DNA from: Chlorobiota bacterium
GTDB taxonomy: Bacteria; Bacteroidota; Bacteroidia; Bacteroidales; Marinilabiliaceae
Direction of reading: 5' to 3'
DNA: 64,000 nucleotides
NCBI GenBank assembly: GCA_013153405.1
Contig: JAADEM010000002.1
Coordinates: forward strand, 1-64,000
Positions 10,314-36,528 of the stretch are shown here, in pieces. The notes under the pieces were generated by a model. It was not told the origin of the DNA and did not search any database. It was given only the letters and a program-made list of their open reading frames with translations. Position 1 is the stretch's first letter; each line of letters starts with the position of its first letter. Both the position numbers and the translations under genes were made by a program.

Positions 10314-12608
10314 TTACCAGCTATTGGATTTCAACTGCTGCACATTCGGATCGTCCGGAAATTTCCGTATCATCTCCTTAGCCAGTGCATTTGCCTCTCT
10401 GGTCTTTTTATATTTCTGATAATAGGAATAAAGATTGGCATAACTTGATACATCCGGGCTTTTCTCAATACCCAATTTCAGATACTTCACGGCACTGTCA
10501 TAATCCTTGAAGAAATCGTACATCATTGCAATATTGTAAAAAACTCGCGGATTTACACCATCCATCTTTGAAGCCTTAATAAGCATATCAAGTGACTCTT
10601 TATATTTTCCCGTTTCTGACAATATCAACGCAAGATTATACAATGAAGCCGCATCATCAGGATTTTTGGCAATAACCTCTCGAAGATACTTTTCGGCTTT
10701 ATCGGGCTTGCCCATAGCACTGTACACATATGCAATATTTATTTTTGCAACATCAAGCTGAGGATCCTGCTTTAGAGCAGCTAGATAATACTTTTCGGCA
10801 AGTTTATATTTTTTACGTACATAATAAAAGTTGCCCAGGCTGAATTTCCCCATCGGGAAATCGGCATTATACTGCAATACCTTTTCATACTCATTCAGTA
10901 CCTCATGAAATGTTTTCTTGTATTTTGAAGGAACCTGGTCATCAGTCATAAATGAGAGTTTGTTTGCTGTTTCCATCCTTACAGCTTTAGTATCATCGCT
11001 CAGCAATGGCAAAAGCTTATCAATATCTTTTTGTGACTCAATTCTTAAAGTGCGAACAGCTATCAATCGCATTTGCGGCTCAATATTATTAAGTTCCGAA
11101 TAAAGAGTTTGCCTGCTGCTGTCTGACTCAAAAGTCAGATTAGAAAGAGCTGTTGCTCTTTTGCTTACAGGATAGGTTCTTTCCGGAGCATTAATTATCT
11201 TCATCAATTGTGCTTCTGCCCCTTTAACACCATGCTGAGCATCGAAGATGGCTTCTCCAAACTGATACGGCCGGCTTATACCATACCATTTTTCAATATA
11301 TCCCTGTGCCCACTTATTACTCTTATCGGCATGACACTGATTACAGGCGTTGGGTGTTCCCAGTTTTTCCGACAGGTCGGGACGGGGAATACGGAAACTA
11401 TGATCACGACGATAATCAACTCCCATGTAATAGCGCCCGTGCATGTGACAGTTATAGCACTGTGTTCCAGAGCCAACCTCAAACTTAACTCCTGATTCTG
11501 AAATTACAGGTTCACCTTTCTCTCCGAAACCTTTGTGATGATGATGATTGGGTGTGTTATAATCCTCGGCCTTGTGACATTGCAGACAAAGCGAGTTATC
11601 TTCAACAGGCAACACTAACTCACCTGAATGAACATTGTGACAGTCGTTGCACTTAATACCCCACTCATACATTTTACTCTGATTAAATGATCCCCACACA
11701 TAATCCTCATCTTTTATCTGTCCGTCCACATAATAATTTGGTTCTGTAGGCAGTTCGGGAATTATATGATCAAATATATTTTTATAATGTGGATCGTAAT
11801 CATTCAGCGAACTTCTACGAGAGTGACAACGAGCACATTTATCAATATATTCTTTGTTGGTCAGACCGCTCGTTTTTTCAATCAACCCGAAATTCTTGAT
11901 CTTCTTCCGGGCATACTCAGGAAGATTTGCCCACTTAATGTGGTATGAGCCCGGTCCGTGACAAGCCTCACAACTAACATCTATTTCCGACCAGGTTGTA
12001 TGGTAAGTATCATTTTGGTAGTCATACCCTTTTTTCAGATCTGTGGAGTGGCAATAAGCACACATTGAGTTCCAGTTCTGAGCCTGATTTGTCCAAAAGA
12101 GCCAGTTATGGTGGTTCATTTTTTCATTTTTATAAGTAGAATCGGGCATGTAATACCAAACACTATCAAGTGTATTCCAGGTTACAGCCAGAGTCTGGAG
12201 TCTTCCTCCAGGAAACTGTACCAGATAATTCTGAAGTGGAGTCCACCCAAAAACATACTTTACTTCATAATCATGCATTTTACCATCCTCACCCTCAGTA
12301 TGAACCATGAATTTTTTACCATTCCGGTACATGCGGTGCTTAACTCCGTTTTTAGAAACCAATACAGCGTCATTAAAATTCCCTAAAACCGTAGTATCGT
12401 TAGCAATATCCATTGAACGGTCGTGATCAGATCCGGTCCAGTCTTTGAACTCCTGCTCATGACACTCCACACAAGACTCTTTCCCTACATACTCATAAAC
12501 AGGTTTTTCCGGAAGTTTATCTGTAAAATAAAACTGTTTTATCAGATAAACCGGATACAATAAAAGTATGATAAAGATAAGTATCAGTTTTAATTTCGGA
12601 TATTTCAT
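10314..12608 (-). CDS. Membrane-anchored octaheme c-type cytochrome with TPR tail
   Basis: A 764-residue electron-transfer protein. An uncleaved N-terminal helix (residues 7-24) anchors it in the inner membrane with the rest in the periplasm. Eight CxxCH haem-binding motifs are visible, at Cys46, 183, 213, 258, 320, 341, 384 and 422. The first four resemble the cytochrome c554/multihaem family, and the later ones the doubled-CxxCH type. Residues about 470-560 look like a HEAT-type repeat (LLPLLSDDTKAVRMETANKL). Residues about 570-764 form at least five tetratricopeptide repeats, presumably a docking surface. It lies downstream of the Rieske and cytochrome b genes on the same strand, so it probably accepts electrons from that complex (inference). 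It has no haem-Lys motif or nitrite reductase hallmark, so a catalytic role is not supported. Confidence 0.88.
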   Translation of the reverse strand: MKYPKLKLILIFIILLLYPVYLIKQFYFTDKLPEKPVYEYVGKESCVECHEQEFKDWTGSDHDRSMDIANDTTVLGNFNDAVLVSKNGVKHRMYRNGKKFMVHTEGEDGKMHDYEVKYVFGWTPLQNYLVQFPGGRLQTLAVTWNTLDSVWYYMPDSTYKNEKMNHHNWLFWTNQAQNWNSMCAYCHSTDLKKGYDYQNDTYHTTWSEIDVSCEACHGPGSYHIKWANLPEYARKKIKNFGLIEKTSGLTNKEYIDKCARCHSRRSSLNDYDPHYKNIFDHIIPELPTEPNYYVDGQIKDEDYVWGSFNQSKMYEWGIKCNDCHNVHSGELVLPVEDNSLCLQCHKAEDYNTPNHHHHKGFGEKGEPVISESGVKFEVGSGTQCYNCHMHGRYYMGVDYRRDHSFRIPRPDLSEKLGTPNACNQCHADKSNKWAQGYIEKWYGISRPYQFGEAIFDAQHGVKGAEAQLMKIINAPERTYPVSKRATALSNLTFESDSSRQTLYSELNNIEPQMRLIAVRTLRIESQKDIDKLLPLLSDDTKAVRMETANKLSFMTDDQVPSKYKKTFHEVLNEYEKVLQYNADFPMGKFSLGNFYYVRKKYKLAEKYYLAALKQDPQLDVAKINIAYVYSAMGKPDKAEKYLREVIAKNPDDAASLYNLALILSETGKYKESLDMLIKASKMDGVNPRVFYNIAMMYDFFKDYDSAVKYLKLGIEKSPDVSSYANLYSYYQKYKKTREANALAKEMIRKFPDDPNVQQLKSNSW

Positions 12609-12845
12609 GTATTATATGGTTCTAATGTTCTATTATTGGTTCTTCTGGAGTTTATATGGCTACTGATGTTTCAATGGTTTTATTTAATTAATTCATCTTT
12701 CAATATTCAACCCCCGGAATTCAACATTATTTATTAATCGCATATCTTATGGTTCCGGGTTTATGGAAAAAGTTAATGGTTAAAACATTTTTATCATATC
12801 ATCAGTTACTCAATTTATGTTCTCAGCTTGGGATTTTCAGCTGCA

Positions 12846-13328
12846 CTATCCATACACTAGTTGTGAGCGCTCAAAACGCTTCCGCTTCTTTGGATGATTT
12901 ATATCCACTTTTACAATTCCGTTCTTAATGTAAACAGGTAACATATCAAGCGGCCTTGTTGCGGGCGGAGACAACACCTCACCTTTGATATTAAATGCCG
13001 ATGCATGACATGGGCAGATAAACCTCTTGTCGCTTTCACTATAATTTATGGTACACCCAAGGTGTGTACAACGATACGATATAGCTATTATTCCTCCATC
13101 GTCAAATTTATAAATATAAAACTTTCCTGATGTAAAAGGATATATTCTTCCCGGCTCAAAATCGTGAGTATGACCTGCCTCATAAAGATCCTCAGGCTCA
13201 ACATTTTCCTTTTTATTCCCGTTGAAGAAATCAAAAACAAGGAATGCTGCCTCTGCTCCGAAAAGAAAAAGAATAATTTTCTTAAGAAAGTTACGGCGAT
13301 TAGTATTTTTAATATCTGTTTTTTTCAT
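12846..13328 (-). CDS. Rieske [2Fe-2S] protein of a cytochrome b complex
   Basis: A 160-residue Rieske iron-sulfur protein. Box 1 is CTHLGC (Cys87, His89, with Cys92 for the disulfide) and box 2 is CPCHAS (Cys105, His108, with Cys107 for the disulfide), so both cluster ligand sets are complete. The N terminus reads TNRRNFLKK followed by a hydrophobic stretch. This is a good twin-arginine signal-anchor, as expected for Rieske proteins that are folded with their cluster before export. The segment after the cluster (SPPATRPLDMLPVYIKNG) is the usual Pro-rich loop. It lies between the octaheme cytochrome and cytochrome b genes, with gaps of about 240-260 bases, and should move electrons from quinol at the Qo site to the cytochrome. 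Confidence 0.95.
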   Translation of the reverse strand: MKKTDIKNTNRRNFLKKIILFLFGAEAAFLVFDFFNGNKKENVEPEDLYEAGHTHDFEPGRIYPFTSGKFYIYKFDDGGIIAISYRCTHLGCTINYSESDKRFICPCHASAFNIKGEVLSPPATRPLDMLPVYIKNGIVKVDINHPKKRKRFERSQLVYG

Positions 13329-13584
13329 TTCAAAAGGAAACAGTTGTTAATAGTTAATGATAATTAACCTGAAAGTTCCGAGTATTGACAAAATGCCAAT
13401 CTGATTTATAATTATCCAAAACAAACCCGAAACTTTCACCTCGAAAAACATTAACTGACATAATATTTATTTATAACTTTTATAAAATATCTCAACCTGT
13501 GATTTTTTCAAATCGTTTTCAGCCCGGCTTAATTTTAATTACTCATAATCATTAACAACACAATTATCCACACAGTAATTACTA

Positions 13585-14856
13585 TCAGAAAATCAATTTC
13601 ATACTCTCCCCTCTTAACCACAATCCGGTCATCATCATCACAATATATGACACAATTATTATGGTAGCAATTACTAAAAACAATTCAGGCTTATTTACTT
13701 TTTTTATTTTCCACAAAAACCAAACATATCCACCGGCCGGTATTACATAAAGCAGCAATGGGAATAATCCTGTGGATATAATAACAGGCATAGATGAAAA
13801 CCAACCTCTGAAATCCAACAAATAATCAGTTGCAAGAATTAAAACAAATGTCAGAAGAAAAGCAAAGACAGCAGCATGTATCACCAGTCTCTTACCTTCG
13901 GAAGAGTTGAACCATACTCCGACATTTATTTTTTCCTGTTTCATATACGACAGATACACAAAAAAAGATATCACAACAGAAGGAACAACAAATGCAACAA
14001 ATGCAGGATGAATATGCATTAAGAACTCCTGCAATCCCATAAAGTACCATGGAGCCTTGCTTGGGTTTGGACTGACAAGAGGATTTGCCATTTCCTTTAA
14101 AGGAGCATTTAAAAATATACTTAAAAACATCAGTAATGCAAAAACTGACAGAGCGGCAATTATCTCCTTACGGATAAGATTAGGATTAACATTTACATAT
14201 ATGCCCTTTTCTTTTCCTGTTGTAACTCCTTTCACCTTTCGTACTAACCAGAAATGCAATACCATAAATACAATTATAAGCAGAGGAAGAACTCCGGTAT
14301 GTAAGGCATAAAAATTTGTCAAAGTATTTTGTCCTACTTGTTCACCTCCTTTAAGTGCAATACTTACAGGATGTCCTATCAGAGGAATATAACTTAATAT
14401 CTCCGTCATTATGGTTACTGCCCAATAAGAAAGCTGATCCCAAGGCAAAAGGTATCCAGTGAAATTAAAAGACAAAACAATCGAAAACAAGATTAAACCG
14501 TAAAGCCAGTTTTTTCGCCTTTCAAAATATACTGACTGCGAATACAAAACACGGACAAGATGCAGGAACACCACAGCAACCATCAGGTTAGCACTCCAAT
14601 AGTGAAGATTTCTAAGCAACCTTCCGAAAATATAAAACTCCTGAAGCGATACTATTGAATCATATGCCATATCGATAACAGGAACATAAATAAATCGTAA
14701 CATCAGTCCGGTAGTTGCCAGAATAACGAATAAAAGTGTTGCTATGCCACCAAGACCGAAAGTCCGGTTAAAACATATTGCATTTTCATCTACTTTTTTC
14801 GGATGAAGATGCAAAAGAAATTTCTTTACTACGGAATTTGTTCCGGAACTATCCAT
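13585..14856 (-). CDS. Fused cytochrome b (b6 plus subunit IV type)
   Basis: A 423-residue polytopic cytochrome b. Four haem-ligating histidines are visible: His85 and His99 in one helix (13 residues between) and His186 and His201 in another (14 between). The latter spacing is that of b6 rather than mitochondrial b. The Qo-site motif normally reading PEWY is APWY here (residues 268-271, in NPSKAPWYFMGLQEF), so the catalytic-site Glu is replaced by Pro. About three further helices follow the Qo region, longer than b6 plus subunit IV. The usual N-terminal amphipathic segment has HPKKVDE. Together with the Rieske and multihaem genes it should form a quinol-oxidising complex in the inner membrane. 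Such Pro-Trp-Tyr variants are known in other non-mitochondrial bc complexes. Confidence 0.93.
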   Translation of the reverse strand: MDSSGTNSVVKKFLLHLHPKKVDENAICFNRTFGLGGIATLLFVILATTGLMLRFIYVPVIDMAYDSIVSLQEFYIFGRLLRNLHYWSANLMVAVVFLHLVRVLYSQSVYFERRKNWLYGLILFSIVLSFNFTGYLLPWDQLSYWAVTIMTEILSYIPLIGHPVSIALKGGEQVGQNTLTNFYALHTGVLPLLIIVFMVLHFWLVRKVKGVTTGKEKGIYVNVNPNLIRKEIIAALSVFALLMFLSIFLNAPLKEMANPLVSPNPSKAPWYFMGLQEFLMHIHPAFVAFVVPSVVISFFVYLSYMKQEKINVGVWFNSSEGKRLVIHAAVFAFLLTFVLILATDYLLDFRGWFSSMPVIISTGLFPLLLYVIPAGGYVWFLWKIKKVNKPELFLVIATIIIVSYIVMMMTGLWLRGESMKLIF

Positions 14857-26521: not shown

Positions 26522-27598
26522 ATGACATCCGTTAAAATAAAAACGGTACTGGTAAGCCCCCTCAACTGGGGATTAGGCCATGCTACCAGAATGATACCTG
26601 TTATAAATGCATTGAAACAAAATGGACATAAAGTAATAATAGCATCATATGGTAAGTCGGGCAGATTGTTGGAAAAAGAATTCCCCGATTGCATAAACAT
26701 CAGGCTTAAAGGATTCACACCCGGCTATTCGCTAACACACACACAAACATTTTCACTTTTTTTGCAAATATTACCTTTTATTTATTACAAACATTACGAA
26801 TACCGGCAAACCCGTAAACTTGTTGAAAAATACAATATAGATATTATTATTTCAGATAACAGATACGGAGTAAGAAACAGAAATACAAAATCAATAATTG
26901 TTACACATCAGGTATCACCTGTATTAAATGGGTTCTTAAAAATATTTGAAAAACCGGCATCGTATTTCATAAGCAGATGGATAAATAAATTTGATAAATG
27001 CTGGGTTCCGGATATAGCATCACGGCCTGGACTAACCGGAAAGCTAAGCGACAATACGTTTAATCTTAAAAACATTGTCAGAACAGGAATATTATCCAGG
27101 TTCCGCCAATGCAAATACAACCAACAAAATTATCATTTCAAATATATTGCAATAATATCCGGTCCCGAACCCTGGAGGCAGGAACTTGAAAAAAACATAA
27201 CATCAGTATTCATAAAAACCAAAGAACCATGCATAATTGTCAGAGGAGTTCCGGGACAAAAAAACAAATCCCGGAAAACAGGTAATATAACAATTTATGA
27301 CCACTGCGAATCTTCAATGCTGAACAATCTGATATGTGATTCGGAAAACATAATCTGCCGTTCGGGATACTCCTCTGTTATGGATCTTGTAACATTAAGG
27401 AGAAATGCACTGCTTATACCCACACCGGGACAACCCGAACAAGAGTATCTGGCCAGACATTTAAATACATATTACGGGTTTAAGACAATAGAGCAAAAAA
27501 AACTGAAAAACACCCACCTGAAAACAATTACAGAAAATGTAATATTTCCAAATCATGGAAACAAACTGCCTGAAAACATGATTGATAGCCTTCTCTAA
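26522..27598 (+). CDS. MurG-like glycosyltransferase family protein
   Basis: A 358-residue GT-B type protein. It begins LVSPLNWGLGHATRMIPVINAL, the glycine- and His-containing N-terminal motif of this GT group, and has the C-terminal donor-site stretch IICRSGYSSVMDLVTLRRNALLIPTPGQPEQEYLA, as in MurG/PF13528-like proteins. It likely transfers a nucleotide-activated sugar to a lipid or envelope acceptor, but neither sugar nor acceptor can be assigned. It follows the radical SAM gene with a one-base gap; co-expression suggests a shared envelope-glycan or cofactor pathway (inference). Confidence 0.75.
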   Translation: MTSVKIKTVLVSPLNWGLGHATRMIPVINALKQNGHKVIIASYGKSGRLLEKEFPDCINIRLKGFTPGYSLTHTQTFSLFLQILPFIYYKHYEYRQTRKLVEKYNIDIIISDNRYGVRNRNTKSIIVTHQVSPVLNGFLKIFEKPASYFISRWINKFDKCWVPDIASRPGLTGKLSDNTFNLKNIVRTGILSRFRQCKYNQQNYHFKYIAIISGPEPWRQELEKNITSVFIKTKEPCIIVRGVPGQKNKSRKTGNITIYDHCESSMLNNLICDSENIICRSGYSSVMDLVTLRRNALLIPTPGQPEQEYLARHLNTYYGFKTIEQKKLKNTHLKTITENVIFPNHGNKLPENMIDSLL

Positions 27599-27785
27599 TT
27601 TCTTTTTATCATTTTTTTTACCTGCAATAACATAACATAAATATCTATTTGTCAATCGAAAAAAACAAAAGGGAAAAAATAAAGTAGAATTAATTGAACA
27701 AAAACGATAACCTTATCTTAAATTTTCCGTACACAATGCTAGGAATGAAACATTAAGGGAAATAACAACCTAATTATTAAAGGAA

Positions 27786-28241
27786 ATGATATATTTTTTA
27801 ATTGTAATTGCCATTTTAGCCGGATTGACTGCATGGTTCTGGAAAAAGGGAATTATATTAATTGCAGAAAAGAAAGCAACTAAAGACCTGGAAAGGCATC
27901 TGTTCCCGAACGGTGAGGAACAAAAGAAAAACGTTCTTGAAACTATGTCAAAAATCACAGGAAATCGTTTCTCTGAATCAATGATGCTTGACTATTTTCT
28001 TAAAATAAAAGGATTGCAAATTATTAACATGAACGATCCTGTTGATTTCTGGACCAAGAAATATCTAATGACACCTACCAAAATGAAACTTAATTATTTT
28101 GAACAGGTGAAATTTTACGAAACATTTCTTAATTATCCGGATGATATTAACAAAGTAATAATACCTTCTTCAGAAACAGAAACACTTGAAGAAGAACCAA
28201 AAATATTCAACGAAAAAGCACTAAGCAAAAAATTTGCCTGA
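27786..28241 (+). CDS. Hypothetical protein with one N-terminal membrane helix
   Basis: A 151-residue protein not recognised. Residues 2-18 form a hydrophobic helix (IYFLIVIAILAGLTAWF) followed by a Lys-rich segment, so the C-terminal part should be cytoplasmic. The middle (ERHLFPNGEEQKKNVLETMSKITGNRFSESMMLDYFLKIKG) reads as regular helices with conserved-looking composition. The tail is acidic and low in complexity. It stands alone and is followed by a bidirectional terminator. Codon use and composition look native. Confidence 0.7.
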   Translation: MIYFLIVIAILAGLTAWFWKKGIILIAEKKATKDLERHLFPNGEEQKKNVLETMSKITGNRFSESMMLDYFLKIKGLQIINMNDPVDFWTKKYLMTPTKMKLNYFEQVKFYETFLNYPDDINKVIIPSSETETLEEEPKIFNEKALSKKFA

Positions 28242-28280
28242 AGGAATGAGGCAAGACCAGGAGAACAACTATTGGAAAGA

Positions 28281-28317
28281 AAAAGCCGGGAAATTTAAAC
28301 CCGGCTTTTCTTTTTTT
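28281..28317. terminator. Bidirectional intrinsic terminator
   Basis: Stem AAAAGCCGGG/CCCGGCTTTT with a 9-base loop and T runs on both strands. It separates the convergent genes at 27786 and 28316; the minus-strand stop codon overlaps its T tract. Confidence 0.9.
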
Positions 28318-29206
28318 ATCTAAGTTCAAATGTTACTGTTCCCACATCGTACCCGTCAATAAATATATCAGCCAGATACTCTCCGTCTGTAAGTTCTCCC
28401 TCATCAACTTTATAAAAAACACAAACATCCAAATCCTTACCCCCATACTCAATGGTACGCATAGCCGAAAAGTTTATTTCCGAATCTTCGTACTTAAATT
28501 TATCATTTAACGAATGCAGTAATAAAGACTTATCAGGACGTTGAATTCTGATATATACATTTTTCTCTCCTACCGGAGCTGTTATGTTTTTAAGAATAGT
28601 AAAGCAGACCCTTATTTTTCTTACCTTGGTAGTTTTACGCGTTACTTTCCCTTTTCCTGTCAAACCCAGAGCCTCAACATTTCTCAATTCCAGTTTCGAA
28701 GCAATATCAACTTTCTCCTCAAGATGTTCTTTTTCCTTTTCCAGTTTTTTCATCGAAGATTTTATGCTGCTATATTTCTGCTGATACTCTTTGTTTTTTT
28801 CAGTTAGCATCTTATTTCGTCTGTTAAGAGAATCAATCTGAACAACATAACTTCTCAGGACACCCCTCAATGTCGAGAGTTCTTTTTTATATTCCCTGAT
28901 TTTAGCAGCATTTGTTGCTTTTATCGTTTTTATTTCCTCAATGAGCTGAATTATTCTCTCGCGTTCATGCTCAAGCATTATATTAAGAGTATCGTTATTA
29001 GTCTGCAGCGAGTCATAATCAAGAGCCAAATCCTGAAACTCCTTCGTTAATTCCATTTTTTCTATGTTCATCTCCTCAACCATCTCTTCCATCTTACTCT
29101 TATTTGAAAAGAAAAGAACAGCAAAAACCACGATTAACACACCAGCAACGGCAAGAATTATCCAAACTTTTTTATCTGTCTTATTTACATTATGTTCCTC
29201 GCTCAT
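28316..29206 (-). CDS. Membrane-anchored coiled-coil protein, function unknown
   Basis: A 296-residue protein. The chosen start (MSEEHNVNKTDKK) is ten codons inside a longer frame and gives a normal short cytoplasmic N terminus. A transmembrane helix lies at about 15-36 (WIILAVAGVLIVVFAVLFF). Residues 40-165 are a long coiled coil rich in Glu, Lys and Leu. The C-terminal 115 residues form a beta-rich domain (GKGKVTRKTTKVRKIRVCFTI, then KNVYIRIQRPDKSLL). It resembles uncharacterised Bacteroidota proteins of this plan; no enzyme motif is visible. A structural or scaffold role at the envelope is possible. It is divergent from the Ig-like lipoprotein gene. Confidence 0.75.
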   Translation of the reverse strand: MSEEHNVNKTDKKVWIILAVAGVLIVVFAVLFFSNKSKMEEMVEEMNIEKMELTKEFQDLALDYDSLQTNNDTLNIMLEHERERIIQLIEEIKTIKATNAAKIREYKKELSTLRGVLRSYVVQIDSLNRRNKMLTEKNKEYQQKYSSIKSSMKKLEKEKEHLEEKVDIASKLELRNVEALGLTGKGKVTRKTTKVRKIRVCFTILKNITAPVGEKNVYIRIQRPDKSLLLHSLNDKFKYEDSEINFSAMRTIEYGGKDLDVCVFYKVDEGELTDGEYLADIFIDGYDVGTVTFELR

Positions 29207-29425
29207 AAAACCTTTATTTTTATATTGATGCACAAAGTTATAACTTTTTATCTCGTTGACAATTCAATTGTTATGTTCCCGTATACTTTTATTACAAATC
29301 CGTTTTTAAATTCATCATTATTAGTTTCATTACCACTTGCCCCGACAAATAATTTTAAAAGAGAACAAAATATTAATAACATAACCACTAATCTTTATAA
29401 ATTTGTCAATAAATTTAAGGTTTAT

Positions 29426-31261
29426 ATGAAACAACACTTTTTTAAAACGGCACTAACAATATCTGTAATTTTCTTTGTATGGTCATGTGCCAACATGGGA
29501 TACCCTACCGGGGGTCCTAAAGATGAAGAACCTCCATATATAAAAAAGTCTAATCCTGAACCCGGTGCACTTAATTTCAAAGGAAAAAAAATAACTATTG
29601 AATTTAACGAACTGTTAAAACTGAACAATGTAAACCAAAAATTAATTGTTTCGCCACCAATGAACAAAAAGCCGTATGTTGTATCTCACGGCAAATCCAT
29701 TCAGATAGAATTTGAGGAAGACCTTCAACCTAACACCACATACACACTTGATTTCGGGGATGCTATTGCTGACAATAACGAAGGAAACGTAATTCCGTCA
29801 TTTACTTTTTCTTTTTCCACCGGAAAAACAGTAGATACACTTCAGGTATCAGGAAATCTTTTCGAAGCTGATGATCTTTCTCCTGCCGACGGAGTTATGG
29901 TAATGTTATACGATAACCTGGCCGATAGTGCTTTCAAAACGGTTGTACCTTCACGGCTTGCCAAAACAGACATTAAAGGGCACTTTACCATAAAAAACGT
30001 TCGTCCGGGAAAATATCGTATTTATGCATTGGATGACAAAAGCAATAATTATAAATTCACTAATCCGGGAGACCGTATTGCCTGGCTTGATACAATAATT
30101 GAACCATCATACGAGTACCGTACGGTAATTGACTCAATAAAAATAAATGTGGATTCACTTACTATCGACTCTGTGGTAGTATCAAAAAAACTTTTTTACA
30201 TACCCGACAGTTTATTGTTATTTCTATTCCAACAGGACTACAAGCAACAGTATCTCGTGTCCGATGAAAGAAAAGAAAAAGCAAAACTTCAGTTCATCTT
30301 TAACCGTACTCTTGAACGGGATCTGAAAATAGACATAACCGGACACGAAGACAAAAAAGACTGGCATCTCACCGAAAAAACGCCAACCAATGACACTGTC
30401 ACAATATGGCTGACTGACAGTGCCATGTACAATCGTGATTCATTATCATTTACACTTACCTATCCGGTACGCGACTCGCTCAATAACCTAATCGACAAGA
30501 TAGATACATTAACCATGTATTATTTTGAGAAAGCATTGAGCAAACGAGAAAAAAAGAAGAAAAAGAAAAGTTCCAGACCGAAAACACCTCACATACGCAT
30601 AAAAGGACCTGCCGGCAAATTAAACGTTTATGCCCCTAACAGTATCACCCTGCCTGCACCTGCTGTTAAGTTTGATTTTTCTGCTGTACACCTGTGGGAA
30701 AAAGCAGATACAATAATGAAACCTGTAAAATTTGACTTCTGGCAGGATACTCTGAACATCAGAAAATATTACATCTGGCACAAGTGGGAACCTGGTGGGG
30801 TGTATGTCATGACAATTGACTCAGCTGCAATTGAGGATATTTATCACACCATTAATTTCCCCGTTGAAGCCAAATTTAAAGTTAAAGAGCTAAGCGATTA
30901 CAGTAAAATCTACATACAATTCGAGAATCCGGGGAAAGACTGGCTGCTACAACTGTTAAGCATCAAAGAAAAAGTGTTACAAAGCGGATATGTACCCGAA
31001 AACGGTAAAATTGCATTTCAGTATATTAACCCCGGTGACTATATGCTTCGTATAGTTGTAGACAAAAACAGAAATAAAAAATGGGACACCGGAAATTACG
31101 ACAAGAAAATACAACCGGAAAAATTAATGTATTATCCGTCAAAAATTAATCTTAGAGCTAACTGGGATAATGTCATAACCGATTGGGACCCGAATAATTT
31201 CAACATATATAAGTTTTCTGAAAAATTCAGGAAACCATCATCATCAAAGAAAAGAGATTAA
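29426..31261 (+). CDS. Ig-like (Big_5) domain lipoprotein
   Basis: A 611-residue predicted lipoprotein. The longer frame upstream is rejected because the ATG at 29426 begins a signal peptide with lipobox VWSC (Cys20). The segment GYPTGGPKDEEPPYI followed by NPEPGALNF and KITIEFNELLKLNN is the Big_5 Ig-like domain found at the start of many Bacteroidota surface proteins. Middle and C-terminal parts are beta-rich. A Lys-rich stretch (REKKKKKKSS) lies near residue 410, and there is a carboxypeptidase-regulatory-like fold around 190-250 (VRPGKYRIYALDDKS). Function unknown. It is 12 bases ahead of a thiamine-binding protein gene and likely heads that operon. Confidence 0.8.
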   Translation: MKQHFFKTALTISVIFFVWSCANMGYPTGGPKDEEPPYIKKSNPEPGALNFKGKKITIEFNELLKLNNVNQKLIVSPPMNKKPYVVSHGKSIQIEFEEDLQPNTTYTLDFGDAIADNNEGNVIPSFTFSFSTGKTVDTLQVSGNLFEADDLSPADGVMVMLYDNLADSAFKTVVPSRLAKTDIKGHFTIKNVRPGKYRIYALDDKSNNYKFTNPGDRIAWLDTIIEPSYEYRTVIDSIKINVDSLTIDSVVVSKKLFYIPDSLLLFLFQQDYKQQYLVSDERKEKAKLQFIFNRTLERDLKIDITGHEDKKDWHLTEKTPTNDTVTIWLTDSAMYNRDSLSFTLTYPVRDSLNNLIDKIDTLTMYYFEKALSKREKKKKKKSSRPKTPHIRIKGPAGKLNVYAPNSITLPAPAVKFDFSAVHLWEKADTIMKPVKFDFWQDTLNIRKYYIWHKWEPGGVYVMTIDSAAIEDIYHTINFPVEAKFKVKELSDYSKIYIQFENPGKDWLLQLLSIKEKVLQSGYVPENGKIAFQYINPGDYMLRIVVDKNRNKKWDTGNYDKKIQPEKLMYYPSKINLRANWDNVITDWDPNNFNIYKFSEKFRKPSSSKKRD

Positions 31262-31273
31262 AAACTTATAACT

Positions 31274-31585
31274 ATGTCTGTATTACTTAATTTCGCAATG
31301 TTCCCTACCGACAAAGGAGACAGTGTAAGCCAATACGTAAGTAAGGTATTAAAATACATTGATGAAAGCGGTGTCGATTATAAACTTAACCCGATGGGAA
31401 CAACCATTGAAACCGAAACAATGCAGGAAGCACTTGCCATTGTTCAGGGTGCATACGACATTCTGGAGCCGGTATCCAACCGTATTTACAGCGCCATTAC
31501 CATCGATGCAAGAAAAGGCAGGTCGAACAGAATGAAAACTAAGATTGCATCTATTGAAAATAAAATAGGGAAAGTAAACCATTAA
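31274..31585 (+). CDS. MTH1187/YkoF-type thiamine-binding protein
   Basis: A 103-residue protein of the small ferredoxin-like MTH1187 family. These proteins bind thiamine or related molecules and form tetramers in the cytoplasm. The family pattern is visible in the N-terminal strand LLNFAMFPTDKGDSVSQYV, the SGVDYKLNPMGTTIE segment and the ending RIYSAITIDARKGR. Length is normal. Its neighbours give no direct thiamine link; it lies between an Ig-like lipoprotein and a DUF3108 protein gene on the same strand. Confidence 0.85.
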   Translation: MSVLLNFAMFPTDKGDSVSQYVSKVLKYIDESGVDYKLNPMGTTIETETMQEALAIVQGAYDILEPVSNRIYSAITIDARKGRSNRMKTKIASIENKIGKVNH

Positions 31586-31652
31586 TCGGCTACAAACATA
31601 TTTTGATAAAACGGTACTGTTTTTGTTTCTAAAAACAGTCAATAAACTTATT

Positions 31653-32471
31653 ATGTCCGGAAAAGCCATAATTATATTTCTCATATTAGCTCCTTTTGTC
31701 ACAAAACTGAAGGCACAATGCACTGATACAAACATTGCTTTCAAAAGCGGAGAAAAAGTGTACTACCACGCATACTACAATTGGGGTTTTATTTGGGTAA
31801 ACGCCGGCGATGTAAAGTTTCTGGTCGATAAAGCCACATACGACGGACAAGAACCGGCATATCTGTTAAGAGCTTATGGCAGAACATACAGTTCGTACGA
31901 CTTTCTTTTTAAAGTCCGTGATACTTTCGAGGTATATGTCGACACCATGAACCTAAAACCTTATGAGTTTTACAGAGTAACCAATGAAGGGAGCACGCAT
32001 ACTCATCATCACTACATATTTGACCGGGAAAATAAAACCATACACACATCTATAAGTAAAGACAACGGACCTTATAAAAATTCGGTTATCCCATGGCCCG
32101 ACTGCTCCTTCGACTTATTGTCTATGGTATACAAAGCCCGAAATATTGATTTTGACAAATATAAGCCGGGGGACAAGATTCCGATCAACATGGTTCTTGA
32201 CGGTAAAACATATAATCTTTACATAAGATACAAAGGCAGAGAAAAAAAGAAAAACCGTGACGGAAGGAAATTTAACTGTCTGAAGTTTTCTCCTCTCCTT
32301 GTAGACGGAACAATATTTACAAGTGGTGAAGGCATGACTGTGTGGGTAACTGATGATAAAAACAGAATACCCATAATTGTAGAGGCTAAAATACTTATCG
32401 GTTCCGTAAAAGCCGTTTTTATTGGTGCCGAAGGGTTACGCCATCCTATAGAAGCAGAGATTACAAAATAG
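31653..32471 (+). CDS. DUF3108 domain exported protein
   Basis: A 272-residue exported protein. The start at 31653 is chosen because it gives a proper signal peptide ending KLKA before Gln22. The remainder matches the DUF3108 pattern: FKSGEKVYYHAYYNWGFIWVNAG at the start, a beta-rich lipocalin-like body, and KFSPLLVDGTIFTSGEGMTVWVTDD near the end. Proteins of this type are periplasmic and thought to bind hydrophobic or lipid ligands; no activity is shown. The last 11 bases overlap the convergent HAD gene. Confidence 0.82.
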   Translation: MSGKAIIIFLILAPFVTKLKAQCTDTNIAFKSGEKVYYHAYYNWGFIWVNAGDVKFLVDKATYDGQEPAYLLRAYGRTYSSYDFLFKVRDTFEVYVDTMNLKPYEFYRVTNEGSTHTHHHYIFDRENKTIHTSISKDNGPYKNSVIPWPDCSFDLLSMVYKARNIDFDKYKPGDKIPINMVLDGKTYNLYIRYKGREKKKNRDGRKFNCLKFSPLLVDGTIFTSGEGMTVWVTDDKNRIPIIVEAKILIGSVKAVFIGAEGLRHPIEAEITK

Positions 32472-33276
32472 CAAGTTTCCTGGAAACATCCATCAAGGGA
32501 GCATCGGCAGCAGGCACGGTAACACTGAACTTTTCCTTAAGCAATAAGGGAGCATCGGCAACCACAAAAGAGTTTTTAAATGCATTAAGCATGTCAAGGT
32601 CATTAAAGTCATTTCCAACGACAGCAACATTATCCTCATTCACATTTTCAATTTCACAAACATATCTTATGCCCTCAGCCTTTGAAACATTCTCACAAAA
32701 AAACTCCATCCATACACTCTTCCCGTCAATAGGGGAAGTGGCCCTGACAGTTTTCACATCATCTACTTTTGATGCAATACGTTCATATGTTTCCACATCG
32801 GGAAGAAAGGCAAGCACCTGAGTATAATCTTTTTCAGGCACCTCCTCATTCAGTGAATGAGCATATTTTTCGTTGTAAGTTATAAACCTATCGAAATCGT
32901 TATGAGATTTTTTTGCCTGAGCGTAATAAAAACAGTGATTGTCAGGAATAGGCCAGTGCAATGTAAAATTCAGTTCATTATTTTTAAGCAACGGAACGAT
33001 CCTGTTTGTTTTCTCGGCACCAAGATGTTTTACCTGAAGTATCTTTTCATTTTTCCAGTCGTATACACCGGCACCTGATGAAAACACCAGATAATCAACA
33101 GGAAACCCGGCAGGAATGACATCTTTAGCCGATTTTAAAGTACGGCCGGTTGCTATTACCCTTATAATCCCTTTACGACCCGCCTCCTCCAGCGCTTCCA
33201 CATCATTTCTACGATACCCGATACAATCTCTTAAAAGTATCGTTCCGTCAAGGTCTGTTGCCAGTAACTCAATCAT
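32461..33276 (-). CDS. HAD-superfamily hydrolase, Cof subfamily
   Basis: A 271-residue phosphatase of the Cof/HAD-IIB type. Motif I is DLDGTIL (nucleophile Asp7). A C2-type cap occupies about 90-190, and motif IV is VVGNDFNDLDMLNAF. Substrates are typically sugar phosphates, flavin phosphates or PLP. It starts one base after metA ends on the minus strand, so the two are co-transcribed. Its 3' end overlaps the convergent DUF3108 gene by 11 bases with no terminator between them. Confidence 0.9.
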   Translation of the reverse strand: MIELLATDLDGTILLRDCIGYRRNDVEALEEAGRKGIIRVIATGRTLKSAKDVIPAGFPVDYLVFSSGAGVYDWKNEKILQVKHLGAEKTNRIVPLLKNNELNFTLHWPIPDNHCFYYAQAKKSHNDFDRFITYNEKYAHSLNEEVPEKDYTQVLAFLPDVETYERIASKVDDVKTVRATSPIDGKSVWMEFFCENVSKAEGIRYVCEIENVNEDNVAVVGNDFNDLDMLNAFKNSFVVADAPLLLKEKFSVTVPAADAPLMDVSRKLAIL

Positions 33277-33277
33277 C

Positions 33278-34201
33278 TCACTTTCTCCTCTTCACATTCA
33301 AGTCATAAGGTGTTGCCTGATAAACATAATAATTCAGCCAGTTGGAATACAGCAGGTGTGCATGGCTGCGCCAGGTAGACAGCGGCTGTTTTGAAGTATC
33401 ATTATCAGGAAAATAATTCACCGGAGGCTCAATTTCGAGTCCCTTTTTAATATCACGTTCATATTCCTCCTTAAGAGTATTTGCATCGTACTCAGAGTGA
33501 CCAGTGACAAAGATCCGGCTTTTATCCTTTGAAATAATCAGATATACACCAGCCTCATCCGATTCTGCAAGTATCTCCAGCTCATCACACTTTTCGATAT
33601 CTTCTTTCCTTATTCCTGTATATCTGGAATGAGGAGCCATAAACACATCATCGAAACCTCTGACCAGAGGTTCCTCGCTTTTAAGTACTTTATGCCTGTA
33701 TATACCCGATAATTTCTTATCCAGTTCATATTTATCGATACCGTAATGATAATATAAACCAGCCTGAGCCGCCCAGCAGATATGAAATGTATTTGTTACA
33801 TGTTCTTTACTCCATTCCATTATTTCAGAGAGTTCTTTCCAGTAAGCCACATCTTCAAACTTCATTAGTTCTACAGGAGCACCAGTTATTATCAGTCCGT
33901 CATAATTATGCTCTTTAACCTCATCGAAGGTTTTATAAAAGCTTACTAAATGTTCTTTGGGTGTGTTTTTTGATGTGTACGTACCTGTCATTAACAACTC
34001 CACCTCAACCTGCAGCGGAGTATTTGATAATGAACGGAGCAGATGTGTTTCCGTTTTAATTTTCAACGGCATCAAATTGAATATAAGTATCTTCAACGGC
34101 CTTATATCCTGACGTACAGCACGCCTGTCGGCCATTACAAAAATATTTTCACTCTCGAGTATCTCGCGCGCCGGCAGATTATCCGGTATTTTTATTGGCA
34201 T
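33278..34201 (-). CDS. metA: Homoserine O-acetyltransferase (MetA type)
   Basis: A 307-residue enzyme of the MetA family, the first committed step of methionine synthesis. The catalytic Cys142 is in [14 protein letters not shown]. The His-Glu pair is in VTGHSEYD. Residue 111, in [10 protein letters not shown], is Glu. In this family Glu at 111 favours acetyl-CoA whereas Gly, as in E. coli, favours succinyl-CoA, so despite the gene name the product should be O-acetylhomoserine. The length is normal. A HAD phosphatase gene follows directly, and an exact -7 element lies 38 bases upstream of the ATG. Confidence 0.93.
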
Positions 34202-34238
34202 AATGCTCTAAAATTATTCGGTTCCCTAATTCAGGCAG

Positions 34239-34246
34239 CAAAGTTA
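34239..34246 (-). promoter_or_regulatory. -7 element for metA
   Basis: Minus-strand TAACTTTG matches TAnnTTTG exactly, about 38 bases before the metA ATG. The -33 region is poorly matched. No riboswitch fold is apparent in the short leader. Confidence 0.45.
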
Positions 34247-34335
34247 CAAATAGTTATCAAATCAGGAACAGTCTGAACCTTATGTTCGGAACAAATACTC
34301 ACATGCCGACTGTAAATTCCTTTGTAATAAACACA

Positions 34336-36528
34336 TCAGTGTTTTTCAGGACGAAACTCTTCAGACACCTCGTAAGCCGGGTCCGCGAGAGTAAAATCCA
34401 GTTGTTTTTTCTCAAGATTAGCCCGAGCCACCATAACTTTTATCTTGTCACCCAACTGGAACTTACGCTTATATTTTCTTCCCACAAGACGATAATTCTC
34501 CTCATCAAAGTGATAGAAATCATCATCAAGATCACGAATCGGAATCATTCCCTCACATTTATTTTCTATTAGCTCAACATAAAGTCCCCACTCAGTCACA
34601 CCGGAAATAAGACCATCAAATACCATTCCCTGTTTATCTTTCATAAACTCCACCTGCTTGTATTTTATCGAAGCTCTTTCGGCTTCTGTTGCAAGCTGTT
34701 CCATATCGGAACTGTGTTCACACTTTTCTTCATACTCATCAGCACTTACCGAACGTCCTCCCGAAAGATATCTTTCAAGCAACCTGTGCACCATCATATC
34801 GGGATACCGCCGTATAGGTGATGTAAAATGCGAGTAATACTTAAATGCTAGACCGTAATGACCGATATTATGAGTTGAATACACTGCTTTGGCCATTGTT
34901 CGTACAGCTAGTGTTTCAACAAGGTTCTGCTCAGGTCTGCCATGAGTTTGTGTCAGAATTTTATTTATTGCATAACTAACCGGTTCCCCTGGCTTCACAC
35001 TCATATCGTATCCGAATCTTTTTATAAAAGTGGCAAAAGTCTCAAACTTATCAGGGTTAGGTTCGTCGTGTATCCTGTATACAAAAGTCTTTGGCTCTGC
35101 ACTTTTACGACCCGGGAGTTCATTTTTACCTATCAGTTCGGCAACTTTTCTGTTTGCCAGCAACATAAACTCTTCTATCAGTTTATTGGCATCTTTCGAT
35201 TCTTTAAAATATACACCAAGCGGTTTTCCGTTTTCATCCAGGTTAAATTTCACCTCCACCTTCTCAAAAGCAATTGCTCCGTTACGGAATCTTTCGGCAC
35301 GAAGTTTTTTAGCAATGCGGTCAAGAGTAAGTATTTCTTCGGCATAATCGCCTTTACCGGTTTCTATTATCTTTTGAGCCTCGTCATATGTAAACCTGCG
35401 ATCGGAATAAATTACAGTCTTGCCAATCCAGCGTTTATGAACTTTTGCCTTATCATCGATTTCGAAAACAGCCGAAAAGCAGAGTTTTTCCTCATGCGGA
35501 CGCAATGAACATATAAAATTACTTAACCGTTCGGGCAGCATAGGTACAACTCTGTCGACCAGATACACAGAAGTAGCTCTGTTATATGCCTCTTTTTCAA
35601 TTATCGATTTTGGAGTAACATAATGTGTAACATCTGCAATATGCACACCAACTTCCCAGTTTCCGTTTTTAAGTTTTTTAATCGACAGGGCATCATCAAA
35701 GTCTTTAGCATCATCAGGATCAATAGTAAAAGTAACCCTGTCTCTGAAATCTTTTCTCTTTTTTATTTCTTCAGGAGTTATTTTTGCATCTATCTTTTCA
35801 GCTGCTGCAATAACATCTTCTGGATATTTATGAGGCAGTCCGAATTCAGCAAGTATTGCATGCATTTCAGCCTGATTATCTCCTGCGTCACCCAAAACAT
35901 CAATTATTTCCCCAATAGGATTCTTTGCTTTTTTCGGCCATTCGGTTATTCTGGCAATGGCTTTCTGTCCGTCTTTAGCCCCGTTCAAAGCTTTCAACGG
36001 AATAAAGATATCATGATGCATTACCTTGTCGTCAACAACCAGAAATGCAAAACCACCCGATATCTCAACCACTCCCACAAACGTATCTTTTTTACGTTTC
36101 AGTATTTCTACAACCTCACCTTCGGGCTGATGATGTTTACGCCGTGCAAACTGAAACACCTTTACATGATCACCGTTAAGTGCTCTGTTCATATTAGGCT
36201 GGGCGATAAATATATCTTCTCCTCCATCATCAGGAACAAGATATGCAGCACCTTTACGCGTCATATCGACCGTACCTGTAACATAAGCACCACGTGAAAG
36301 CAATTTATACCGTCCTACAGAAACTTCAGTCAGATAACCACTTTCAAACAACTCGTTCAGAACTATCTGAACCATCTGTTTGCCAGGTCGTTTTTTTATG
36401 TTCAGCAAGGATGCAACCTGCTTGTAATTGAATGTTCGTTTGGGGTATTTATTAAACAGTTCCTGTATTAATTTTTTAAGTTCTGACTTTTTCAGAACCT
36501 TTGATTTTTTCTTTTTTTTCTTTACCAT
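34336..36528 (-). CDS. rnr: Ribonuclease R
   Basis: A 730-residue 3'-5' exoribonuclease of the RNB family that degrades structured RNA. An N-terminal basic helix-rich region (MVKKKKKKSKVLKK) leads into cold-shock-type OB domains, then the RNB domain at about 250-590 with the catalytic acidic cluster IDPDDAKDFDDA. The FTSPIRRYPDMMVHR motif follows, and a C-terminal S1 domain is seen around 630-715 (FDGLISGVTEWGLYVELIEN). The in-frame upstream Met adds seven residues without support, so the start at 36528 is used. Confidence 0.95.
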   Translation of the reverse strand: MVKKKKKKSKVLKKSELKKLIQELFNKYPKRTFNYKQVASLLNIKKRPGKQMVQIVLNELFESGYLTEVSVGRYKLLSRGAYVTGTVDMTRKGAAYLVPDDGGEDIFIAQPNMNRALNGDHVKVFQFARRKHHQPEGEVVEILKRKKDTFVGVVEISGGFAFLVVDDKVMHHDIFIPLKALNGAKDGQKAIARITEWPKKAKNPIGEIIDVLGDAGDNQAEMHAILAEFGLPHKYPEDVIAAAEKIDAKITPEEIKKRKDFRDRVTFTIDPDDAKDFDDALSIKKLKNGNWEVGVHIADVTHYVTPKSIIEKEAYNRATSVYLVDRVVPMLPERLSNFICSLRPHEEKLCFSAVFEIDDKAKVHKRWIGKTVIYSDRRFTYDEAQKIIETGKGDYAEEILTLDRIAKKLRAERFRNGAIAFEKVEVKFNLDENGKPLGVYFKESKDANKLIEEFMLLANRKVAELIGKNELPGRKSAEPKTFVYRIHDEPNPDKFETFATFIKRFGYDMSVKPGEPVSYAINKILTQTHGRPEQNLVETLAVRTMAKAVYSTHNIGHYGLAFKYYSHFTSPIRRYPDMMVHRLLERYLSGGRSVSADEYEEKCEHSSDMEQLATEAERASIKYKQVEFMKDKQGMVFDGLISGVTEWGLYVELIENKCEGMIPIRDLDDDFYHFDEENYRLVGRKYKRKFQLGDKIKVMVARANLEKKQLDFTLADPAYEVSEEFRPEKH

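Follow-up and report, generated by a model that had tools for sequence, protein, structure and literature searches.

We describe a three-gene cluster in a 64,000-nucleotide stretch of DNA (the window) from a Chlorobiota bacterium of the Marinilabiliaceae (GenBank assembly GCA_013153405.1, contig JAADEM010000002.1), whose draft genome (G000) comprises 3.78 Mb and is 93% complete. The first gene encodes a fused b6-type cytochrome b, the second a Rieske protein and the third an octaheme TPR cytochrome (OCT). On balance we favor the view that the three proteins form an inner-membrane, menaquinol-oxidizing Rieske/cytochrome b complex, a relative of mitochondrial complex III, in which OCT, as the third subunit, replaces cytochrome c1 or f. 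The trio is real and conserved and probably makes up a functional complex, and the replacement of c1 or f by OCT is well supported by genomic comparison. The genes lie where an earlier note on this sequence had placed them, and their products match the Pfam models for Cytochrome_B, Rieske and TPR:

13585-14856, minus strand: fused cytochrome b of the b6 type, 423 aa, its N half b6-like and its C half subunit-IV-like
12846-13328, minus strand: Rieske [2Fe-2S] protein with an N-terminal anchor of the twin-arginine type, 160 aa
10314-12608, minus strand: OCT, 764 aa

The linkage of the three genes is conserved. In a collection of named genomes, the arrangement cytochrome b–Rieske–OCT, identical in order and strand, was found at 54 of the 58 loci that had sufficient upstream sequence for assessment. 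The trio loci belong to Bacteroidota, Thermodesulfobacteriota, Calditrichota, Ignavibacteriota and Chlorobiota and to metagenome-assembled genomes (MAGs) labeled Myxococcota and Pseudomonadota, labels that may be wrong. At least 586 stretches in one genome collection encode relatives of OCT, the closest named one among the matches listed being that of a Marinilabiliaceae MAG (75% identical), and cultured holders are found in Saccharicrinis, Carboxylicivirga, Labilibacter, Thermophagus and Mangrovibacterium. Closer to the host, among 198 genomes of the order, 12 besides that of the host have a cytochrome b that matches closely (E below 1e-40). All 12 also encoded OCT, and of the remaining 185 only two had an OCT, a distant one on its own. 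Cytochrome b, Rieske and OCT genes were adjacent, as in the host, in six of the 12; in two others OCT lay on another contig, and one of these genomes (G067) has another type of cytochrome b, accompanied by an octaheme protein of its own (507 residues). A phylum-wide search with the cytochrome b returned mostly other Rieske/cytochrome b types.

The three proteins have also diverged in step. Their pairwise distances were correlated (r 0.87-0.90 over 64 triples) to a degree reached by none of 2000 permutations, shared ancestry supplying part of the correlation. Moreover, the type of anchor carried by OCT follows its linkage, since the N-terminal helix is free of cysteine in all 70 operonic OCTs whereas 9 of the 11 unlinked or divergent OCTs have a cysteine there, in most cases within what resembles a lipobox. 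The other two are a trans-encoded OCT in G096, a genome that has a cytochrome b with no OCT beside it, and an additional copy in G118 that is interrupted by a stop. The divergent or unlinked label requires three changes on the OCT tree, and hence these cases are not all independent. Gene order, co-occurrence, correlated divergence and anchor type, together with the lack of class-I cytochromes c described below, uphold the proposal that a membrane-anchored octaheme protein has taken the position of c1 or f.

The cytochrome b (156.6 bits against PF00033) is the only match to that family in the host genome. Its fused b6-type character is borne out by its heme ligands (H85/H99 and H186/H201, at the b6-type spacings of 14 and 15, invariant in 59 of 59 sequences) and by its best PDB matches, which are cytochrome b6 chains. 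The nearest NCBIfam models for the two halves are those of Geobacter ExtP (residues 10-211, 239.9 bits, under the cut-off of 290) and the subunit-IV-like ExtQ (residues 220-345, 42.2 bits, under the cut-off of 150). The Qo motif reads A268-P269-W270-Y271 (APWY), of which P269-W270-Y271 is kept in 58-59 of the 59 sequences. Gly34 stands where b6 has Cys35, the residue for covalent heme c-i, in 58 of 59 aligned cytochromes b, so that the cysteine characteristic of b6f is missing. Additional conserved histidines outside the heme ligands are H16 (in HLHP, near the N terminus) and H281 and H283 (in HIHP, after APWY).

The Rieske protein (46 bits against PF00355) has the motifs CTHLGC and CPCHASAF, with cluster residues C87, H89, C92, C105, C107 and H108 invariant in 68 of 68 relatives. 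In the same 68 relatives Ser110, which hydrogen-bonds to the cluster, is kept and Phe112 replaces the usual Tyr. Replacement of this Tyr by Phe lowers the midpoint potential of the cluster, as established by mutant work; a cluster of lowered potential, as expected for a menaquinol chain, is therefore predicted here. The C-terminal residues R149 and Q156 are conserved and family-specific.

OCT itself, which matches TPR models of Pfam (up to 66 bits) and Cytochrome_C554 (45 bits), is laid out as follows:

12540-12596, minus strand: N-terminal transmembrane anchor without a lipobox cysteine, residues 5-23 (hydropathy)
11271-12497, minus strand: heme core of predicted OcwA/MccA-type fold, residues 38-446 (AlphaFold2 core model and profile)
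12150-12368, minus strand: insertion of beta-sheet structure separating hemes 1 and 2, residues 81-153 (DSSP of the model)
12048-12062, minus strand: heme 2 motif CAYCH (C183-H187), with a predicted open distal site (alignment with OcwA heme 2)
10929-11261, minus strand: HEAT-like helical repeats, about residues 450-560 (secondary structure of the model)
10317-10928, minus strand: TPR domain, about residues 561-764 (PF14559 at 66.2 bits, others above cut-off)

The eight CxxCH motifs (at C46, C183, C213, C258, C320, C341, C384 and C422), which the earlier note had counted correctly, are not there by chance, since their cysteines and histidines are invariant across 80 aligned homologues. In the full-length AlphaFold2 model (mean pLDDT 89.4), repeated helical hairpins begin near residue 450 and continue through the C terminus; MamA and other TPR structures match this model (Z 16-18). 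Thus, of the two kinds of repeat claimed previously, TPRs are found above cut-off, whereas the HEAT assignment is weaker: HEAT_2 (PF13646) scores 20.8 bits, below its cut-off of 27.7 bits, with hairpin repeats seen in the model.

Because the search with the full-length model was swamped by TPR structures and was uninformative on the heme core, we folded the core alone (mean pLDDT 82.6). This model matched OcwA with a Z of 18.6 (329 residues, root-mean-square deviation 3.5, 22% identity; Foldseek E 3.6e-13), followed by the undecaheme S-layer cytochrome of C. ferrireducens (Z 12.6) and MccA (Z 8.5) and, more weakly, by NrfA (Z about 5.8) and the octaheme nitrite reductases and HAO (about 5). 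A PDB search with a profile of 58 heme cores likewise returned OcwA (1e-20), the C. ferrireducens S-layer cytochrome (2e-12), c554 (4e-6) and MccA (3e-4). In the alignment, hemes 1-4 of OCT correspond to hemes 1-4 of OcwA and hemes 5-8 to hemes 6-9, leaving heme 5 of OcwA without a counterpart, as in MccA. The beta insertion of OCT sits at the place that matches the beta-sheet domain common to MccA and OcwA and absent in other NrfA-family proteins (PMC6703420).

In OcwA six hemes have bis-His ligation, one has His-Met ligation and heme 2 is five-coordinate (PMC6703420). Across 95 OCT sequences, six histidines outside the motifs (62, 223, 327, 355, 358 and 403) are invariant or nearly so, and several methionines are nearly invariant. 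Since six is the number of distal histidines that OcwA uses for its bis-His hemes, heme 2 of OCT is probably open at its distal site, and the simplest reading of the sequences would be that six hemes are bis-His, one is His-Met and heme 2 is open. No conserved cysteine was found outside the heme motifs of the OCT homologues; the copper-binding cysteines of MccA are thus unmatched, and the copper-site cysteine, which we take to be Cys399, aligns with a non-Cys residue of OCT. The CxxCK motif of NrfA is also absent from OCT, and PF02335 (Cytochrom_C552) matches neither OCT nor the rest of the genome.

The statement that no c1-like or oxidase gene lies near the trio holds, and can be extended: no class-I cytochrome c (PF00034, PF13442) was found anywhere in the host genome, 93% complete as it is, cytochrome f and PF02167 having had no separate search. 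A c1-type partner elsewhere in the genome was rejected on this basis; neither a co-conserved c1 gene at a distance nor a loss of linkage, either of which would have told against the earlier note, was seen in the host. A cytochrome c oxidase acting downstream was rejected as well, and no CuA oxidase was found in the host genome: of the two matches to the COX1 family, one is a qNOR-like protein and the other a heme-copper protein with Ser at both CuA Cys positions. The latter (L066:167-2371, contig C49) consists of a heme-copper oxidase-like subunit I and a short subunit II with the two substitutions (STEYSGPKGHKM) and is possibly a quinol-oxidizing or NO-reductase-like enzyme; the former (L065:628-2883, contig C163) is a 751-aa qNOR-like nitric oxide reductase encoded after the gene for an Rrf2-type regulator. 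Of other conceivable acceptors, neither NrfA nor NosZ was found in the host genome. Alternative complex III (NrfD-like ActC plus ActB) was also discarded, the sole NrfD match lying in a polysulfide-reductase-like cluster on another contig. On contig C89 (L148:4552-10677), genes for a molybdopterin oxidoreductase of the twin-arginine type, an FeS subunit, NrfD, a YeeE/YedE-like protein and a rhodanese-like protein form a sulfur-compound respiration cluster. A porin-cytochrome-like cluster lies on contig C35 (about 27147-35095; L053:9148-17096) and encodes a 7-heme protein, a b561-type cytochrome b, a 4-heme protein, an NHL propeller, a 5-heme protein, a 651-aa protein that is porin-sized and without a Pfam match, and a 570-aa protein with 20 CxxCH motifs.

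How does the trio compare with known systems? It shares with bc1 and b6f complexes the two histidine pairs of cytochrome b and the Rieske cluster motifs but not the third subunit, c1 or f, and its gene set is that of Rieske/cytochrome b complexes with a membrane-anchored multiheme c protein. The principle of a multiheme third subunit is known, being documented in Kuenenia, implied for the Geobacter Ext cluster and present in other sets of the Bacteroidota. In the Rieske/cytochrome b complexes Kustd1480-1485 and Kuste4569-4574 of Kuenenia stuttgartiensis, cytochrome b is b6f-like and a c protein with six or eight hemes stands where cytochrome f would be; one of these complexes has an additional HAO-like octaheme protein, a proposed nitrite reducer (PMC12954380). 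The Kuenenia complexes differ from the trio in their split b6 and subunit IV, in an NAD(P) oxidoreductase subunit and in the HAO-like octaheme, and TPRs are unmentioned in PMC12954380. The Geobacter Ext cluster also brings Rieske, b and multiheme c proteins together (PMC5877670), with a multiheme replacement for c1 or f implied (PMC5877670, PMC2825233). Unlike in the trio, whose cytochrome b scores under the cut-offs of these families, ExtP and ExtQ are separate proteins, and ExtO/ExtP/ExtQ have as partners a porin and proteins with 5, 10, 12 and 4 hemes. For Caldithrix, too, a proposal exists in which multiheme proteins receive electrons from a Rieske/cytochrome b pair (PMC5317091). The other Bacteroidota sets share the principle of a polyheme third subunit but use class-I-type polyhemes or Multi-haem_cyto proteins instead of the OCT family and have Rieske first in gene order. 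Examples (L187, L188, L190, L193-L195) have a 5-heme third subunit of 407 aa or 8-heme third subunits of 538, 647 and 857 aa; since these polyhemes differ from set to set, the third subunit looks modular in Bacteroidota. We also note single chains of about 907 aa with a cytochrome b domain and 11 CxxCH motifs (L054:7394-10504, L055:8601-11704), encoded next to a Mo cluster that resembles polysulfide reductase and to a small Rieske gene; about ten genomes of the order have matches to them in frames of similar length.

OcwA of Thermincola potens (PDB 6i5b) resembles OCT in core fold, motif order, beta insertion and predicted ligand pattern, but it has nine hemes, including an NrfA-like heme 5, and is a cell-surface protein with a three-helix bundle and no HEAT or TPR repeats; we know of no Rieske/cytochrome b partner for it. 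MccA (PDB 4rkm) shares with OCT the eight hemes, the missing counterpart of OcwA heme 5, the beta insertion and a CxRCHxR sequence after heme 4, and differs in having CX15CH at one heme and copper-binding cysteines. Its quinol module is also different from the Rieske/cytochrome b pair of OCT, since it is an Fe-S protein together with an NrfD-like quinol oxidase that supplies MccA/SirA (PMC6976685). Because defining features of each fail, we do not file the trio under bc1/b6f, MccA, OcwA or NrfA. The apparently new element is a third subunit that joins an OcwA/MccA-type core to an inner-membrane anchor and a HEAT/TPR tail. We found no description of such a subunit with a Rieske/cytochrome b pair in the open literature, subscription journals lying outside the search, and an earlier description is possible; TPR, octaheme and cytochrome b are all unmentioned in Murali 2023, on syntrophic sulfate reducers.

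In the mechanism that we favor, menaquinol would be oxidized at the Qo site, one electron being recycled through the two b hemes and the other passing to the low-potential Rieske cluster and from there to OCT, which would be held in the membrane by its N-terminal helix. The HEAT/TPR tail could hold a partner protein or organize the complex. Within OCT, electrons would travel to heme 2, the predicted open site, and on to a small soluble acceptor. With this heme probably open, OCT may serve as a terminal reductase that has been added to a Q-cycle complex. We lean slightly, and short of conviction, toward OCT ending the chain in this way, given that the apparently open heme is conserved, lipoprotein OCTs included, and that no class-I cytochromes, CuA oxidase, NrfA or NosZ were found in the host. 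More tentatively still, we suggest a complex III variant that is itself the terminal reductase in several anaerobic phyla, its Q-cycle core feeding the OcwA/MccA-type octaheme site directly, with no soluble cytochrome c.

Several points weigh against this account, which is built on gene sequences: these give the parts, their conserved linkage and, by prediction, the core fold, and from them we infer that the proteins assemble, which way electrons flow, that one heme is open and what kind of reaction ends the chain. The gaps between the genes in the host (256 bp between cytochrome b and Rieske, 237 bp between Rieske and OCT) exceed those of most relatives, and with spacings of about 250 bp co-transcription is deduced from the order conserved among relatives. 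In four of the 12 order genomes the Rieske–cytochrome b pair is accompanied by a class-I-type polyheme protein of about 680 residues, and OCT lies next door on the opposite strand as a lipoprotein; hence OCT is not always the subunit beside the Rieske protein. The lineages in the distance-correlation and anchor tests are not independent. The Qo motif lacks the Glu of PEWY, and its Pro is shifted. As to the hemes, ligands were assigned from conserved residues rather than coordinates; His356, present in 71 of 80 sequences, could be a seventh ligand, which slightly weakens the count; and the CX15CH motif and extra cysteines of MccA are absent, all eight OCT motifs being CxxCH in the 80 homologues. 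Finally, the neighboring genes suggest no substrate.

The earlier note took OCT for a wire to a periplasmic or outer-membrane acceptor. Its quinol-oxidizing pair with OCT as third subunit stands; the wire is unsettled, because the OcwA/MccA fold group includes a true reductase as well as proteins of extracellular electron transfer and because the ligand count suggests an open heme. We give serious weight to an identical complex in which OCT only passes electrons on, through a partner docked on the TPRs, to periplasmic and outer-membrane cytochromes and finally an extracellular acceptor. The folds nearest to OCT, those of OcwA and of the S-layer cytochrome of C. ferrireducens, belong to proteins that transfer electrons at the cell surface, TPRs favor the docking of proteins, and no CuA oxidase, NrfA or NosZ was found in the host. 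The open heme would then have no respiratory role; the same has been suggested for the side activities of OcwA with nitrite and hydroxylamine. For relaying alone, however, such a heme would be unnecessary, and the ligand set apparently leaves one open in all 95 sequences, lipoproteins included. The cluster on contig C35 would offer a route outward, but it is not linked to the trio locus, and its porin assignment is without Pfam support.

We regard it as unlikely that OCT is no subunit at all but a separate membrane-bound cytochrome, merely co-expressed with the pair and fed by another carrier. The intergenic gaps of the host, the existence of unlinked OCTs and the different polyheme protein that accompanies the pair in four genomes would fit such an arrangement, whereas OCT follows the pair in gene order, strand, co-occurrence and type of anchor, and a class-I carrier was not found in the host genome. 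Least probable of all is that the complex works mainly in reverse, from periplasmic cytochromes to quinone, for instance in syntrophic sulfate reducers. The trio does occur in Thermodesulfobacteriota, including Desulfobacteraceae bacterium Eth-SRB2, a partner of ethane-oxidizing archaea; yet its holders are mostly heterotrophic Bacteroidota, and a Rieske entry point would be energetically unfavorable for low-potential donors.

In the window, the trio is bounded on its 5' side by divergent genes for an amino-acid permease with a universal-stress domain and for a hemerythrin, and on its 3' side by an OEP/membrane-fusion/RND efflux set. No gene besides the trio was found at a fixed position in the loci of the relatives; a sulfatase family is present in 14 loci, in variable position and orientation. 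Sulfatase and HAD-phosphatase-like genes adjoin OCT genes in Bacteroidota and Desulfobacteraceae, in variable order (L068:5189-7823, L089:5012-8155, L103:6500-9971, L135:7220-9849), and at L135 the OCT next to them is a lipoprotein and the Rieske/cytochrome b pair is missing.

The quinol modules that supply periplasmic multiheme reductases with electrons usually pump no protons. If our account is right, the trio would allow a small compound, of nitrogen, sulfur or another kind, to be reduced in the periplasm with proton translocation and without a soluble cytochrome c. It also bears on the proposal, given in a passage of PMC5317091 that cites Dibrova 2013, that multiheme c proteins were early acceptors of Rieske proteins. 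The trio recurs in many anaerobes of several phyla and is testable in cultured strains of several genera. Through direct coupling of a Rieske/cytochrome b pair to an OcwA/MccA-type octaheme protein, anaerobes among the Bacteroidota, Thermodesulfobacteriota and Calditrichota would have a coupling site that goes unrecognized in genome annotation as it now stands.

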